NCBI GenBank assembly: GCA_022827625.1
Contig: JAJEIE010000019.1
Location: 62,001-126,000, forward strand
Length of the DNA stretch: 64,000 bases
Reading direction: 5' to 3'
Source of the DNA: Candidatus Poribacteria bacterium
GTDB taxonomy: Bacteria > Poribacteria > WGA-4E > WGA-3G
A program made the position numbers and the translations under genes. The notes beneath the pieces are model-generated. The model was not told the DNA's origin and did not search any database. It saw nothing but the letters and a program-made list of their open reading frames with translations. Of the stretch, positions 27,772 through 34,878 are shown in pieces (positions within the stretch are counted from its first letter, which is position 1; every line of letters starts with the position of its first letter).

Positions 27772-28047
27772 TTAGGTATAGATTTTAATTTCTTCAGGGT
27801 TTATAGCAACGATACGAGAAATGTGTTCAAGTTCGTCTTCGGATAGCACTTGGACGATATCTTCCCAGACTCGGTCCTCCCGTTCCGAACGTTTATATTC
27901 ATAGATGTCAAATTTACGACTGATAACAAGAATGCGGATATGTTCCTTGTCATCATCGTCAAAAACATCAACGAAATAGTCTGGATCTGGGAAAGAGCCT
28001 GATTTTAGCGTGTCATGAATTTTCTGTTTTAGCGTTTCAGATGCCAT
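27772..28047 (-). CDS. BolA-like small protein, copy 2
   Basis: A 91-residue protein whose layout matches BolA/IbaG. An N-terminal helix (LKQKIHDTLKSG) leads into an acidic beta hairpin. Next is a strand with HIRILVISRKFD in the place of the BolA V-x-S-x-x-F motif, then a helix that begins near RVWEDIVQVL and a last strand that ends in PEEIKIY. In true BolA the helix starts with RHRxV; here the sequence is REDRVW, so the family assignment is by layout. It is clearly a paralogue of the upstream gene (copy 1), 13 bp away. GAGG precedes the ATG by 7 nt. Confidence 0.5.
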   Translation of the reverse strand: MASETLKQKIHDTLKSGSFPDPDYFVDVFDDDDKEHIRILVISRKFDIYEYKRSEREDRVWEDIVQVLSEDELEHISRIVAINPEEIKIYT

Positions 28048-28060
28048 ATCTCTACCTCAA

Positions 28061-28324
28061 TTACCAAAGTTGGACCTCTTCAGGAATGGCACCAATTAAT
28101 AAGGAGACGTGTCCCCATTCTTCATCTGAAAGATGCTTTAAGAGTTCGTCCCAGATGATGTCACTTCTATCTATCATTGTGTGTCCGTTAAATTTTCGGC
28201 TGACAACGACAACGTGGATGAAATCGGCAGCTCCATCAGATACATCAACAAAATCTTTTGTATCGCTGAAGTAGCCTGTTTTGAGCAGATTCTGAATTTT
28301 TTGCTTTAACATTTTGCACGCCAT
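28061..28324 (-). CDS. BolA-like small protein, copy 1
   Basis: An 87-residue paralogue of copy 2: LKQKIQNLLKTGYFSD, then FIHVVVVSRKFNGHTMIDRS and IWDELLKHLSDEEWGHVSLL, ending IPEEVQLW. The segment VVVVSRKFNGHTMIDR is closer to the canonical BolA core than copy 2. It lacks the conserved Cys/His ligand pair of iron-sulfur BolA partners as far as I can judge. I start at the ATG at 28324 (AAGGA at 8 nt); the frame is open to 28375. First gene of the operon. Confidence 0.5.
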   Translation of the reverse strand: MACKMLKQKIQNLLKTGYFSDTKDFVDVSDGAADFIHVVVVSRKFNGHTMIDRSDIIWDELLKHLSDEEWGHVSLLIGAIPEEVQLW

Positions 28325-28452
28325 TACGTAAGTCCTTAAACCGTTTGTGTAGATAGAGATAGCGAAACCCAACACTTCAAACGTTACTCACGTTATGCTA
28401 TACCACCTTGTGTTTTCAACGACATCTAAAACCCAATAATTTTATACCGATT

Positions 28453-30021
28453 TCACCTCAAGACCTGAAGCCCGCGAGTAGTTATGCGATAATAGCCCGT
28501 TCTCGTTCGTTCTATCAATCCTTTGTTCATCAAGTGCTTTTCTGCCTGTCCAGTTTTGCTTAAGTAACTCCTTTCATCATCGGTCAGGGAAAAGTGTTCG
28601 GTAAGGAGATTGATAAACTCCAACCGACGATGTTCCTTTTCGTCCGCAAGAAGTTCAAGCACAGGTTGCTCCATTTCTCTACCTGTAGGTAGCGTTGTTC
28701 TTTCATAAACAGGTTGGACAGGCTGTGGTGAAAGTTCTTGATTCCGTGAAGAGTTGAACAGTTTACTTAATTCTGTTACTTCATGCTCTATCCACGCTTG
28801 AAAATCTTCGGAGGAAATTGTTATTTCCCAATCGCCATCTACTCTCTCAACACTCCATCCTGCCTGTCTCATCTTTTCCTTACCGTCGGGGCCTTGGGCA
28901 TGCCAGTAGTGCCAGAAACTTTGGGTAATATCGTCTCCCTCAGCATAATACTCGTCTGAATGCAGCATAAAGGTCGTCCCTTGAAAAGTGATAGAATTAG
29001 GCTCTAACTCGGACTCGGTTAACTCGATCCCTGTAAGTACCTCAAGTTTACCGGAGTATTCCCAACCCTCTTCCGAGGCTTTAAGCGATTTGATACGCTC
29101 AATCACGGCTGTCCGGTAGCCCGGGGATAATCGAATAACCTTGTGGAATTGGTCATTCTTGAGCCCCAATTTCTCGCGGATGCGACGCCAGCTAAGGGGT
29201 TTAGAACCTGAGGCGTTTATACGAAGTTTGGCCACTTTTACCGCTACCTCGTTGCGTTCATCCTCGGTTGTGTCCGTTGTGTAACGCTCCGAGACCGACG
29301 ACTTCTTTTTCAGTTGTTTGCGGACTTCGACTTGCGCTAAAGCGGTGTGAGGTTCAGGCTTTGTTTTCTCAGCATTCGCTGCTTCTAACTGGTCTGAAAT
29401 AGTCTCTATGCGTTTCTTATACGCGGCATTTTCCCTCTTTAACTGATCTAACATAGTTTTGAGACGTTTTTCCATCTCAGTCTTCTCTATTTCCACGTCT
29501 TCTAATTGATTTGATATGTCTGATAAGCGTTTTTCAGCGGTAGCCTTCTCTGCTATTACTGCTGCTAACTGGCTGGATATAGTTGTAAGACGTTTCTTGT
29601 AAACAGCAATCTGTTCTACTTCAGTTTGTTGTTTGTCAATATTATCAGAAAAGAGTTGATCTCGAATTGTCTCAATACTACGTTTAGCATCCGCCCTGTC
29701 GATTTTTTCAAGGACCCTGGCAATGAGGAAAAGATGCGCTCGGGTGAATTCGGGATCCAAATCCCATGGTGGGTGTGAGGCGCGATTTCGACTCTCTACT
29801 ATCTGCCACGCAGCACTCCGGGCTTCGTAGTATGGATCAACATTCTCAAACCACCGTTTGAAAGAATTGAACCAGTTATTTGTGATAATACGGGCAATGT
29901 CAGAAATGTCTATTTCCCCGTTGATTTCCTCCAAGGTGTGATTAGTAACGAATGGACGCATAGCATTCAAATATATATCGTGTGCCGCGCGGAGAGCGTC
30001 ACGATTAGGATAACTCATCAT
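28453..30021 (-). CDS. Swt1-type HEPN coiled-coil protein
   Basis: The N-terminal HEPN domain (about 1-120) starts MSYPNRDALRAAHDIYLNAM and holds the HEPN ribonuclease motif R-x4-H as R78NRASH83. A long coiled coil follows (about 130-245), built of repeats such as KKRLTTISSQLAAVIAEKAT and TEKRLSDISNQLEDVEIEK. Then come a helical domain (about 265-330), a beta-rich domain (about 340-420) and a C-terminal winged-helix-like segment (EHRRLEFINLLTEHFSL... GYYRITTRGLQVL). HEPN proteins of this class are often linked to defence or RNA decay; the function here is not known. The frame runs on to 30084, but that part lies inside an inserted element. The ATG at 30021 gives the natural N-terminus, with AAGGAGG 15 nt upstream. 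Confidence 0.7.
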   Translation of the reverse strand: MMSYPNRDALRAAHDIYLNAMRPFVTNHTLEEINGEIDISDIARIITNNWFNSFKRWFENVDPYYEARSAAWQIVESRNRASHPPWDLDPEFTRAHLFLIARVLEKIDRADAKRSIETIRDQLFSDNIDKQQTEVEQIAVYKKRLTTISSQLAAVIAEKATAEKRLSDISNQLEDVEIEKTEMEKRLKTMLDQLKRENAAYKKRIETISDQLEAANAEKTKPEPHTALAQVEVRKQLKKKSSVSERYTTDTTEDERNEVAVKVAKLRINASGSKPLSWRRIREKLGLKNDQFHKVIRLSPGYRTAVIERIKSLKASEEGWEYSGKLEVLTGIELTESELEPNSITFQGTTFMLHSDEYYAEGDDITQSFWHYWHAQGPDGKEKMRQAGWSVERVDGDWEITISSEDFQAWIEHEVTELSKLFNSSRNQELSPQPVQPVYERTTLPTGREMEQPVLELLADEKEHRRLEFINLLTEHFSLTDDERSYLSKTGQAEKHLMNKGLIERTRTGYYRITTRGLQVLR

Positions 30022-30050
30022 GTTTCTACTTACAAACCTCCTTATAGATA

Positions 30051-30297
30051 CTAAATTTTGGACAATTTCAAGGGCAATAGACATTTCGCCCCGCTGGGGC
30101 TTATATTTTGGAGGGGTCCGACGTTTCTATAGACATTTCGCCCCGCTGGGGCTGCGCATCTGATGATACTACAACGCCTCTTTTCTCAGGTGTTTCTGTA
30201 AAACGAAACCGCAGAATATTAAACACCTTCGTGAGAGAGACAATACCAATACTTGATAGAAAAGCCTGAAATATTATCCAAATTGTCCAAACTTTAG
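30051..30297. mobile_element. 247-bp MITE-like element with 9-bp target duplication
   Basis: The ends are CTAAATTTTGGACAATTT (30051-30068) and, inverted, CTAAAGTTTGGACAATTT (complement of 30280-30297); 17 of 18 bases match. The identical 9-bp sequence TTATAGATA flanks both sides (30042-30050 and 30298-30306), as expected for a target-site duplication. The inside has no coding capacity and includes two copies of a 25-bp repeat. This explains most of the 331-bp gap between the HEPN gene and the next gene. Confidence 0.82.
30077..30153. repeat. Two direct 25-bp GCCCCGCTGGGGC repeats
   Basis: ATAGACATTTCGCCCCGCTG-GGGCT occurs at 30077-30101 and 30129-30153, 27 bp apart. Each copy holds the palindrome GCCCCGCTGGGGC. 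On the minus strand the first copy supplies an ATG that opens the longer HEPN frame. Confidence 0.88.
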
Positions 30298-30316
30298 TTA
30301 TAGATAAATTACCGAA

Positions 30317-30345
30317 AGTATATCACGTTTTCACATTCCTACCAA
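30317..30345 (-). promoter_or_regulatory. Candidate promoter of the HEPN gene, separated by the insertion
   Basis: On the minus strand, TTGGTA (30340-30345), a 17-bp spacer and TATACT (30317-30322). With the element and one target copy removed, this promoter would lie about 50 bp from the ATG at 30021. The element now separates it from the ribosome site at 30037-30043. Confidence 0.5.
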
Positions 30346-30352
30346 CTGCAAA

Positions 30353-32719
30353 TTACGGTGTCACAGAAAACGCCTCAACCTTACCCGTCTCAAGCCACCG
30401 TGCAACCACACTTCGCCCCGAAACCACCACTTTTTTATCCTCAAAAGACTCTGTCCCAAAGTTCGCGAACATCTCAACCGTATCCGCAAACATCGTGCGC
30501 TGAACGAGTTTATCCTCGGTCAACCACTCAAAATCCGTCATCGCTTTTCCCCCAATCTGCCGATGCAATGGTGAAAAGAAGGCGTAGTGCTGTTTTATCC
30601 AATCTTTATGCTTTGCAAATCTTGCTGTGTTCAGATGATACAACGGCGGGACATTATAGAGCAACTCTAAGAGTGCTACTGTCTCTACTGCATTTGTAAA
30701 TTTGAGACTACTATATCCCCAATGATGCGTCGTCACCACCGAATCGTGAAACACAATCTGGTAGAGCGGTAACCGAAAACGTGGATCGTAATAAAGATAG
30801 AAATAATGCTCTTTGAGAGGAACTTGTTTAACGTGAATCGCAGGGGCTTCGGGGGGCCAGTACCCACCTATGTAGTAAGGCGAGGCTTTATCCTTCATAT
30901 CTGGATCACTCCACCCGATGACAGGAGTCATCATACCGTGTGCGAAATGGATCGTCCCTGCAGCATAAGCGGAACCGCCTTCTGAACCGATGACCATAGC
31001 ATGGGTATCCCGAATCCACGCCATACGCGCAAGTCTCGCATTCATATCATCTAACTGCGTCGCAGGGTGCGATGGTGCGTAATCGTCAAAGAGTTCTCCG
31101 TAAGCGTCACAATCAATGAACCACGAATTAAAATCCGTTGGCATTTGCGTGAGGATACCGTTGACGCGATCTTCGACGTAAGGTTGCGCGACGAGGGGAC
31201 TTAAGTGATACCCCTTCTTTTTAAATCCCCCGCTCTTTGTTCCATCGGCGTTGACAATCCCGCCGCTCTCATAAAGCGATAGGTCAAACTGTGCTGTCTC
31301 CCATGTATTCTTTTCGTTCGGATGATGGATGCTATGGTAGGAGTCATAGGGTCCAACCAGATAACCGAGTTCTCTCGCTTTCGCAACGGCAGTCGGATGC
31401 CGAAACCCGTCCTGCCACGAATCCGCACCGAGCCAGAGTCTATCCAGTCCATTTTTCGCAAACCGTTCCAGCAGTTTCACAGACAGACCGTCCCCCCATT
31501 CATTCGGATGTCGTAGCATATTTGAAAACGCTGCGTAGAGCAGTAGGCAGTTGCGTCGATAGAGTTCCGTAGGTGATAGCGTAGCCGGATTTCGGAAAAG
31601 CAGCTTCTCCGCTTCTGGCATGAGCGGAATCCCTATCCAAGCGGTGGGATTGTAAAAATTCGGCCTCTCAAGCTGCCTACTTATTGCACGACTTACAACC
31701 CGTCGGACGTAATTGGACGGATGGTCTGACTGGGCGATCTCTCGGATGGCGTTCTGTGTTTCTATGTTTAATCGTGAAAAAATATGTCCTTCGATGGTCT
31801 CTGCTGCGCGTTCATTACTGCCACGACTAAGTCTTGAGGCGAACGTTTTCCAATCTGTTACATCGTATTGACTGATCATTTTGCCGCCCCAGAGGTAGGC
31901 GTGCGCCGCACCGAGTAATTTCTCTGCTTCAGGGGTCTGTTTAATCTTTTCGGCGAAGGAGACGAACTCACCGTTTTGCTGTAGCCAACGTCGATACTGT
32001 TTGGCGGGTTCAACGGGTGATGCTTCGCCGAGCGAGAGACGTACCCCGTATTTTTTCTCTTTCCAGTTCGGTGTGAAGGTATGGGACACCTGCATGCCTA
32101 AAGCAGACGCTTCGGTCTTACTGAACAGAATTTTGTTGTTGAAGGGATTTGTTAAAATATAGGTGAGTGTCCTATCGCCAAGGTCGAGTCCCCAAAACGG
32201 CATGGAGAGACCCGCTGTTGTGTTTATCGGTCCCCGTTTAGATAGAAAGTCCTGCCACGTAGCGTCATCTTTTGGCACGTAACTCCCTTCAAAAAAAGGG
32301 AGAATATAGCCTTGAATAGCATCTGTGTTTTCAATAATCGGCCAGGTTAAACTTTGTGTGTCGCTTATAGACGCATCTTGAATGAATTCAGAGGTTAGCG
32401 TGTTTTCTATCAATTCAATACGAACAGTGAGGTGTCTTTCAGGCAATTTCCAACTAAATACGATGCCCTCATCAGAAAGATCATGAGAAAAATCTGTTAC
32501 AGTCCCGAGTCCCTTCTGTCCCGATGAAATCCGTACTGTTATGTTCGTATCTTCAGGATAGGCATTCACCGCGAGCGATTGTGGAAAGATTTCAACTGTC
32601 CAGGTTGTACCGCTGGCGGTTGTACTGCTATGGCGAATTGATTCAAGCGTATCACCCATACTGAGAGAAGCCAAGAGAAATACCCCTATAGATAAGATAT
32701 AAAATCGCAATCTGGACAC
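30353..32719 (-). CDS. Secreted glycoside hydrolase-like protein
   Basis: A signal peptide (residues 1-22: FYILSIGVFLLASLSMGD) is followed by a beta-sandwich region (about 25-260) and a barrel-like region (about 380-690). The latter contains LGYLVGPYDSYHSIH, FNSWFIDCDAYGELFDDYAP and a SEGGSAYAAGTIHFAHGM segment. Asp residues on predicted strand ends (IDCDAYG) could be catalytic. The plan resembles GH101 or DUF5696-type alpha-N-acetylgalactosaminidase-like enzymes, but the family is not certain. It would act on extracellular or periplasmic glycans. No polysaccharide locus surrounds it. Confidence 0.6.
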   Translation of the reverse strand: MSRLRFYILSIGVFLLASLSMGDTLESIRHSSTTASGTTWTVEIFPQSLAVNAYPEDTNITVRISSGQKGLGTVTDFSHDLSDEGIVFSWKLPERHLTVRIELIENTLTSEFIQDASISDTQSLTWPIIENTDAIQGYILPFFEGSYVPKDDATWQDFLSKRGPINTTAGLSMPFWGLDLGDRTLTYILTNPFNNKILFSKTEASALGMQVSHTFTPNWKEKKYGVRLSLGEASPVEPAKQYRRWLQQNGEFVSFAEKIKQTPEAEKLLGAAHAYLWGGKMISQYDVTDWKTFASRLSRGSNERAAETIEGHIFSRLNIETQNAIREIAQSDHPSNYVRRVVSRAISRQLERPNFYNPTAWIGIPLMPEAEKLLFRNPATLSPTELYRRNCLLLYAAFSNMLRHPNEWGDGLSVKLLERFAKNGLDRLWLGADSWQDGFRHPTAVAKARELGYLVGPYDSYHSIHHPNEKNTWETAQFDLSLYESGGIVNADGTKSGGFKKKGYHLSPLVAQPYVEDRVNGILTQMPTDFNSWFIDCDAYGELFDDYAPSHPATQLDDMNARLARMAWIRDTHAMVIGSEGGSAYAAGTIHFAHGMMTPVIGWSDPDMKDKASPYYIGGYWPPEAPAIHVKQVPLKEHYFYLYYDPRFRLPLYQIVFHDSVVTTHHWGYSSLKFTNAVETVALLELLYNVPPLYHLNTARFAKHKDWIKQHYAFFSPLHRQIGGKAMTDFEWLTEDKLVQRTMFADTVEMFANFGTESFEDKKVVVSGRSVVARWLETGKVEAFSVTP

Positions 32720-32731
32720 TGGTTTCTATCC

Positions 32732-32905
32732 TCATTCAAAAAGTTGTGAGACTTGACACGAAAAGCCTTCGACGACATCTTCACCCGTAAGCGTATTTTC
32801 GCGCGTAAACGTTTCGATATCTGTCTCCGAACGATACACCGTCTCGGTTTCTATCGGAGTGGGAGGGATTGCCACCTGTTCCGGTTCAGCTTTTAGCATA
32901 CTCAT
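32732..32905 (-). pseudogene. Uma2-family remnant with internal deletion
   Basis: The 57-residue frame consists of an N-terminal Uma2 leader (MSMLKAEPEQVAIPPTPIET) joined directly to the last 37 residues (TVYRSETDI ... GEDVVEGFSCQVSQLFE) of the family. The central catalytic region, present in the two Uma2 genes at 33688 and 34303, is missing. The frame is kept and a strong ribosome site (AAGGAGG, 7 nt) precedes the ATG at 32905, so a short product may still be made. It starts 14 bp after the stop of the isomerase-like gene. Confidence 0.8.
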
Positions 32906-32919
32906 CAGAATGCCTCCTT

Positions 32920-33678
32920 TTATTTTCTTAATTCTTCCCATAATGCTCGATAAAAGTTCATCACGCGCAGAGGGTCAGAACTTCCGGCGATTTCCGCAAG
33001 GGTGTACCCCGTATACCCAGATTCTTTTAAGGATGTAAAGAGTTCTCGCCACGGGTACTCGCGTCGGTGGAGTTCCGTGATATGCACCAAACCGATTCTA
33101 CCCTTTACAAGATTAAAGTTGTTCTGGATGGAGCCGTTTTCTACCTCACCGAAGTTGGAGTTCCAACAGACGTAGACGTTGTCGTGGTCAGCGACATCAA
33201 TAATCGTTCGGATGTGTGGGAGTTCAGAGGTGCCGCCACCGTGTACTTCTAACCGAATCTGCACGCCGAGATTGGCAGCGAATTCGCCACACTCTCGCAA
33301 TGACAATCCAATTTGCTCCAACGTCTTTTCAACAGGCACTTCCTCAGGAAGTCCGTTCGGACGTACCTTGACCCCTGGTGCCCCGACATCTGCTGCCAAT
33401 TGGGAGTATAACTTTGTCCCTTCTATATTCTGGCGAACCGCATCTTGATCGACGGAATGATAGTCAAATGCTGAACCCAAACCCGCAATCTCAATCGGAG
33501 CGTCATCGAATTGTTGTTTTACGACTGCGCGTTCGCTTGCCGAGAGTTCGACTTCAACGCCGTGGGCATGCGTTGTCCGTAATTCCACACCCGCAAATCC
33601 TGTTTCCACACAATTTTCAATAATTGTGGGGATATCCCAATCTTTTGCCATATTATATGTAACTAAACCAAGTTTCAT
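32920..33678 (-). CDS. Sugar phosphate isomerase/epimerase (TIM barrel)
   Basis: AP-endonuclease-2-fold TIM barrel, 252 residues. It opens with KLGLVTYNMAKDWDIPTIIE. Metal-ligand positions are suggested by ENCVETGFAGVELR, IRLEVHGGG (E and H), VYVCWNSNFGE and LVHITELHRRE, and it ends YTGYTLAEIAGSSDP. Members isomerise or epimerise sugars or inositols. The usual H-x-H/D ligands are partly replaced (WNSN for the common WDxxH), so activity is uncertain. It is flanked on both sides by Uma2-family genes and is 9 bp from the nearer one. Confidence 0.8.
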   Translation of the reverse strand: MKLGLVTYNMAKDWDIPTIIENCVETGFAGVELRTTHAHGVEVELSASERAVVKQQFDDAPIEIAGLGSAFDYHSVDQDAVRQNIEGTKLYSQLAADVGAPGVKVRPNGLPEEVPVEKTLEQIGLSLRECGEFAANLGVQIRLEVHGGGTSELPHIRTIIDVADHDNVYVCWNSNFGEVENGSIQNNFNLVKGRIGLVHITELHRREYPWRELFTSLKESGYTGYTLAEIAGSSDPLRVMNFYRALWEELRK

Positions 33679-33687
33679 AGGGTCTCC

Positions 33688-34254
33688 TTATTCAAAAAGT
33701 TGTGCGACCTGACACGAAAATCCTTCAACGACATCCTCACCGGTGAGTGTATGGTTGCGTGTAAGCAACTTAATGTCAGTTTCAGAACGATATACCGTCA
33801 CCGTTTTTGACCTCGGTTCGAGAATCCAGACGAGTCTCACCCCTGCGCTTAGGTAGGCAAATGCCTTTTCAATGACTCTGGATTGAGTGTCTGTCCGTGA
33901 AACGACTTCAACGGCGAGGTCTGGGGGAATAGCAAACGCTGTGCTTAAATCCTCAGGCATTCGTGCTGTTGACACAAACGCAATGTCTGGCATCAGTACC
34001 CGATCACCGATCTGGAAACCTGTGTCTGGTGCATAGACATCCCCGAGTTGATTCTCACGTACATACACACCTAAAGGTAAAATGAGATTTATACTAATTT
34101 TACCGTGTTCGCCTGAAGTTGGTGGCATCGGTATTAATTCTCCTTTGACATATTCATATCCCTCTAAATCGCTCTCAAGAAATTCTTGCAACGTCATCTT
34201 CTCGGGATGTGGAAGCATCTCTTGGGCGACTTCACTAACGTCTTGTTGATTCAT
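33688..34254 (-). CDS. Uma2 family endonuclease-like protein, copy 1
   Basis: A 188-residue PD-(D/E)xK-fold protein of the Uma2 (DUF820) family. The signature runs MTLQEFLESDLEGYEYVKGE, then SGEHGKISINL, MPDIAFVS (Asp), PPDLAVEVVS (Glu) and the KAFAYLSAGVRLVWILEP end strand. These proteins resemble restriction nucleases and are common in large copy numbers; their role is unknown. The C-terminal 40 residues are nearly identical to those of the neighbouring Uma2 genes. Confidence 0.88.
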   Translation of the reverse strand: MNQQDVSEVAQEMLPHPEKMTLQEFLESDLEGYEYVKGELIPMPPTSGEHGKISINLILPLGVYVRENQLGDVYAPDTGFQIGDRVLMPDIAFVSTARMPEDLSTAFAIPPDLAVEVVSRTDTQSRVIEKAFAYLSAGVRLVWILEPRSKTVTVYRSETDIKLLTRNHTLTGEDVVEGFSCQVAQLFE

Positions 34255-34302
34255 TTTTTAGCCCTCCGTAATTAGTTTACCATGTCTCAACGCTATCTAT
34301 TC

Positions 34303-34878
34303 CTATTCAAAAAGTTCTGCGACCTGGCACGTAAATCCTTCAACGACATCCTCGCCGCTAAGGGTATCGTTACTGGTGAGCGTTTTGATGTCTGTTTTGG
34401 AGCGATACACCGTTACCGTCTTCCCCACAGGTTCGACAACCCACACGAGACGGGTCCCCGCATCAAGATAGGCAAATGCCTTTTCAGCAACACGGTACTG
34501 AATATCTGACGGTGAGACGACTTCAACGGCGAGGTCTGGTGCCACAGGGGATGCTTGGCGTTTGTTCTCAGGCAGCCTTGCTGTTGAAACGAAGGCAATA
34601 TCCGGCTTAACCAATCGATCTCCCAATTTAAAATCTGTATCCGCGGGATACACACGTCCCAGCTGATTCTCGCGAACATGTAAACTCAAAAGAAAACTGA
34701 GATTCATGCTGATTTCACCGTGCTCCATTGTCGGTGGTGCCATCGGGATTAATTTTCCTTTTACATATTCGTAGCCTTCTAAATCAGATTCGCAAAATTC
34801 ATCTAAGGTCATATCTGTTTCTATGGGAGCCAAGGATATTGCTGCCTGTTCAGAACCGTTCTTTAGAATGTCCATCAA
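34303..34878 (-). CDS. Uma2 family endonuclease-like protein, copy 2
   Basis: A 191-residue paralogue of copy 1, with the same motifs: MTLDEFCESDLEGYEYVKGK, KPDIAFVSTARL, APDLAVEVVSPSD and KAFAYLDAGTRLVWVVEP. Catalytic Asp and Glu positions are kept, so the fold and possibly the activity are intact. It is 48 bp upstream of copy 1 and divergent from the HTH/metallo-beta-lactamase gene. Confidence 0.88.
   Translation of the reverse strand: MMDILKNGSEQAAISLAPIETDMTLDEFCESDLEGYEYVKGKLIPMAPPTMEHGEISMNLSFLLSLHVRENQLGRVYPADTDFKLGDRLVKPDIAFVSTARLPENKRQASPVAPDLAVEVVSPSDIQYRVAEKAFAYLDAGTRLVWVVEPVGKTVTVYRSKTDIKTLTSNDTLSGEDVVEGFTCQVAELFE

Follow-up and report, generated by a model that had tools for sequence, protein, structure and literature searches.

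Introduction

Several described systems resemble the locus reported here. The closest are the Correia elements, or NEMIS, which are MITEs of Neisseria and, like our element, are short, non-coding and bounded by terminal inverted repeats (TIRs). One Correia element lies just downstream of the mtrCDE promoter and is subject to RNase III cleavage at its TIRs, and sigma-70 promoters inside MITEs are also known (PMC10969869). For elements that carry a transposase, the IS701 family is relevant. Its members usually make 4–5-bp target duplications, and ISGka1 and ISGka2 of Geobacillus are reported exceptions with duplications of 4–9 bp (PMC8024623). A third relevant system is formed by the RAYT transposases and REP sequences, the latter being hairpins associated with IS200/IS605-type transposases.

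Here we analyze a 64-kb window (C26:62001-126000) of a 5.0-Mb Candidatus Poribacteria genome, in which a short element separates a gene from its predicted promoter. With a probability of about 90%, we consider this element to be a non-coding MITE inserted in the 5' leader of a putative HEPN/Mrr-type gene. As with Correia at mtrCDE, it is located immediately downstream of a promoter and in a transcribed leader, transcription being predicted for the Poribacteria MITE. The two differ in that the ends and parent of the Poribacteria MITE are unrelated to those of Correia elements, and in that neither an IHF site nor an internal promoter is demonstrated for it. Among the papers listed by our literature searches on Poribacteria MITEs and insertion sequences, none concerns this MITE family.

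Results

The element spans 247 bp (30051–30297, plus strand in the family-consensus orientation, which places its hairpin doublet at the left). Its left TIR CTAAATTTTGGACAATTT (30051–30068, plus strand) and right TIR CTAAAGTTTGGACAATTT (30280–30297, minus strand) match at 17 of 18 positions, and both flanks carry a perfect copy of the 9-bp target-site duplication TTATAGATA (30042–30050 on the left and 30298–30306 on the right, neither assigned a strand). On size, inverted ends and duplication, the preliminary description of this DNA was correct to the base. The 64-kb window was scanned for inverted arms matching at 17 of 18 positions or better, within 100–450 bp, with an exact 9-bp repeat immediately on either side; the element is the sole match. 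We used MITE to mean an element of about 70–300 bp that has TIRs and no transposase gene, which describes this one: its longest ORF starting with ATG, GTG or TTG encodes 53 aa, and no transposase gene is present.

The gene downstream of the insertion (28453–30021, minus strand, starting at 30021 or 30018) has an intact reading frame and encodes a weak Swt1-like HEPN domain, a coiled coil and an Mrr_N winged helix. Of the domain labels, the HEPN assignment made in the preliminary description is weakly supported (Pfam HEPN_Swt1, E=0.003, under the curated cut-off), and the C-terminal Mrr_N match is solid (Pfam, E=2.5e-12). PADLOC matches of the protein, weak and lying over the coiled-coil part, were rejected. 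A sigma-70 promoter of the form TTGGTA-17-TGaTATACT, with TG preceding the -10 box, is predicted at 30317–30345 (minus strand), and the Shine-Dalgarno sequence (SD) AAGGAGG is located at 30037–30043 (minus strand), both where they had first been placed.

Other open reading frames of the neighborhood were noted in passing. Just downstream of the HEPN/Mrr gene, two adjacent ORFs of 91 and 104 aa (27772–28375, minus strand) look paralogous, and similar sequences adjoin the glycoside-hydrolase gene described below in relatives (L087, L099). Elsewhere in the window, a tandem pair of paralogous ORFs (33688–34878; 188 and 191 aa) appears Uma2-like by eye, and a truncated third ORF occurs at 32732–32941.

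In nucleotide searches of 60 relatives, the neighboring glycoside-hydrolase gene (Pfam GH129) turned up in most genomes of the genus; several of these have the HEPN/Mrr-like gene beside it. Once 256 bp, made up of the element and a single target copy, are taken out of the window, the stretch between the -35 box and the SD aligns without a gap to that of six congeners (G006, G018, G021, G022, G033 and G013). The -10 box and the SD are separated by an identical 17 nt in these congeners and in the restored window, compared to 273 nt with the element in place. The six congeneric sites are genuine empty sites. Because the alignment is gapless and the spacing the same, the empty site predicted in the preliminary description was found, and the close promoter-to-ribosome-site arrangement that it proposed is the ancestral one. 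The promoter itself is conserved in the six congeners; its -35 box is TTGACA or a close variant in most relatives and TTGGTA in the window. The same intergenic region holds its own copy of the MITE family in G031 and, elsewhere within it, hairpin repeats in G022; it therefore collects repeats.

The ends of the element (ACTAAA.TTTGGACAATTT) are present in all 38 genus genomes searched, with almost no matches to a reversed control pattern. When paired, they enclose elements of 220–234 bp, some larger ones, or elements of about 1.4 kb. Elements of the 223-bp class can be aligned from one terminus to the other, and a profile built from them (nhmmer) matches the window element over its whole length with 129.6 bits (model positions 1–224). 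Family matches occur in 36 of the 38 genomes of the genus. Within the window's own genome, where copies were counted from searches of loci, a second near full-length copy at C37 scores 151.8 bits with the same profile, and fragments are found in addition. Further copies of the ends, on which the preliminary description had made its reading depend, thus exist both in this genome and across the genus. End motifs that stand alone in the own genome were not accepted as full elements, since most lack a partner within their 1.5-kb flanks. If CTA is taken as the start of the element, most target duplications in the family are 8–9 bp long, with T first and A last. We assign the window copy to the family on its ends, its left half and its profile score, because its right half is strongly diverged.

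This divergence bears on the age of the insertion. The window copy is the most diverged of 22 aligned, at 68% identity to its closest aligned sibling compared to 76–86% for the other copies, and no parental transposase was found in its own genome; the proposal that the insertion is recent is not borne out. The perfect 9-bp duplication would fit a modest age but does not prove it. The comparison supports a lineage-specific insertion, one not shown to be young, because the absence of the element covers only the related species compared.

Full-length insertion sequences with the ends of the MITE, a search for which had been proposed, were found in Poribacteria relatives. These elements of about 1.4 kb have the same TIRs, are flanked by T...A duplications of 8–10 bp and encode a 425-aa DDE transposase that is intact in several relatives. 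One complete MAG contains several near-identical copies with 8–10-bp duplications. The transposase passes the NCBIfam model NF049999 (transpos_IS701_3; E=4e-61, 207 bits, cut-off 170) and also matches Pfam DDE_Tnp_1 and DDE_5; against the IS701 model NF033540, it scores 113 bits, under the cut-off of 150. Transposase matches are found in 28 of 38 congeners, which serve as a control for the search of the window's own assembly (95% complete, fragmented), where no transposase of the parent type was found. As judged from shared ends and duplications, the 1.4-kb insertion sequence is likely the parent of the MITE. Likeness to the IS701 family thus lies in the NF049999-passing transposase encoded by the full-length relative with the MITE's TIRs. 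The differences are that the window MITE has no transposase and that the Poribacteria elements make mostly 8–10-bp T...A duplications instead of the usual 4–5 bp. The family name is provisional because the 4–5-bp duplication was not seen in the parent element, though published exceptions exist.

A separate observation concerns G004:C23 (L104:449-1054), where a full-length insertion sequence of the parent family lies in the 3' part of a gene that, by eye, looks like a paralogue of the HEPN-like gene.

Taken together, the size, TIRs, duplication, empty sites, further copies and ends shared with the 1.4-kb insertion sequence bear out the MITE identity first proposed, and the element is well supported as an ordinary MITE insertion.

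A 25-nt hairpin repeat occurs twice in members of the MITE family, as direct copies offset by 52 nt. In the window, the first copy ATAGACATTTCGCCCCGCTGGGGCT is located at 30077–30101 and the second, in the same orientation, at 30129–30153 (both plus strand). At up to three mismatches, 16 sites in the own genome match this repeat, with no match to the control. Among 140 hairpin heads CTATAGACAT from the loci examined, related copies of which are not independent, 81 have fully paired 5-bp arms compared to about 26 after shuffling of the arms among heads, and arm variants covary (GCCCC/GGGGC, GCTCC/GGAGC, ACTCC/GGAGT, GTCCC/GGGAC).

Related CTATAGACAT hairpins flank, on both sides and in inverted orientation, two IS200-type Y1 transposase genes of the own genome (G000:C20:106865-107209, L226, and G000:C24:58955-59299, L227). 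These two genes are nearly identical, and one has hairpin doublets on both sides. Their proteins pass the IS200 model and score 31.7 and 29.1 bits against the RAYT model REP_Tyr_transpos, under its cut-off of 80. The hairpins accordingly resemble RAYT/REP systems in their covarying stems and inverted placement around Y1 genes. They differ in that the head is CTATAGACAT with no GTAG tag, that the Y1 proteins fail the RAYT cut-off, and that the hairpins form direct repeats inside the MITE. Because hairpins of the MITE type, with covarying arms, flank Y1 genes, the MITE seems to have captured a doublet of hairpins that belongs to a second transposition system. It is a rather speculative extension that the family would spread captured IS200-type, REP-like hairpins, with the unrelated DDE and Y1 HUH systems both acting on one 223-bp element, and that in leaders like the present one it would function in structured RNA control. 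A third Y1 gene (G000:C7:153874-154095, L228) is surrounded by numerous GTAGTAGGGCAATTCATTGCCCGT repeats that have the look of classical GTAG-tagged REPs.

With the predicted sigma-70 promoter intact and the element between it and the SD, the MITE is most likely transcribed as part of the leader, which is predicted to be 256 bases longer with the element. This leader folds better than shuffled sequences (z=-3.5), and the TIRs pair in silico, enclosing the rest of the element. The preliminary description had suggested that the insertion may silence or rewire the gene. Silencing, either by uncoupling the promoter from the ribosome site or by termination of transcription within the element, would draw on the increase in -10 to SD distance and on the strong structure of the leader. 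We nevertheless consider it unlikely: the promoter and the reading frame are intact, the one intrinsic terminator found is on the plus strand, with none on the transcribed minus strand, predicted accessibility of the SD hardly changes (0.57 with the element, 0.60 without), and the start codon is predicted to be more open with the element than without (0.55 vs 0.25).

Less probable still is that a new promoter or start codon for the gene comes from the element. The part of the element at 30051–30084 offers an in-frame ATG, at 30084, which would add 21 residues to the product if used. The frame is open from there into the gene, and sigma-70 promoters within MITEs offer a precedent, but a 63-nt open frame is not unusual, no good SD precedes this ATG, and the scan, at its threshold, detected no promoter-like site within the element on the minus strand. 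A last alternative is that the sequence is not a transposon and that its inverted ends are incidental to a conserved RNA or regulatory element. Solo end-like motifs without a partner in the own genome and the conservation of part of the element in many places might suggest this, but it is highly improbable given the empty sites, target duplications at many independent sites, transposase-bearing full-length relatives that share the ends, and no Rfam match anywhere in 29800–30600.

Discussion

The insertion, its empty site, its family, the parent insertion sequence and the intact predicted promoter are read from the sequences themselves; the start of transcription, mobilization in trans and any effect on expression are inferred. 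We propose that a non-autonomous MITE was mobilized, presumably in trans, by the IS701/IS4-like DDE transposase of its 1.4-kb parent and entered a TTATAGATA target that lies between the HEPN/Mrr-type gene's promoter and its ribosome site, where 9 bp were duplicated. Because the promoter is untouched, transcription of the gene most likely continues; if the predicted transcription start holds, the leader would have gained about 256 nt and would include the whole MITE. In this leader, the TIRs could pair into a long stem, and expression might be modestly tuned after transcription by RNase III cleavage at that stem, or by altered mRNA stability or Rho sensitivity. Because the search for intrinsic terminators found none in the direction of transcription, the SD is predicted to stay accessible and Correia elements provide a parallel, we favor such tuning at the level of the leader over simple silencing; as the most likely effect, it stands at roughly even odds.

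This study documents a MITE and insertion sequence pair in the uncultured phylum Poribacteria, and the exact empty-site comparison dates the insertion to after this lineage had diverged from the related species examined. The hairpin doublet of the MITE could serve the study of how one repeat type captures another. If the leader effect is true, the locus would join other examples in which a transposon sits between a promoter and its coding region; the gene concerned here may function in defense.
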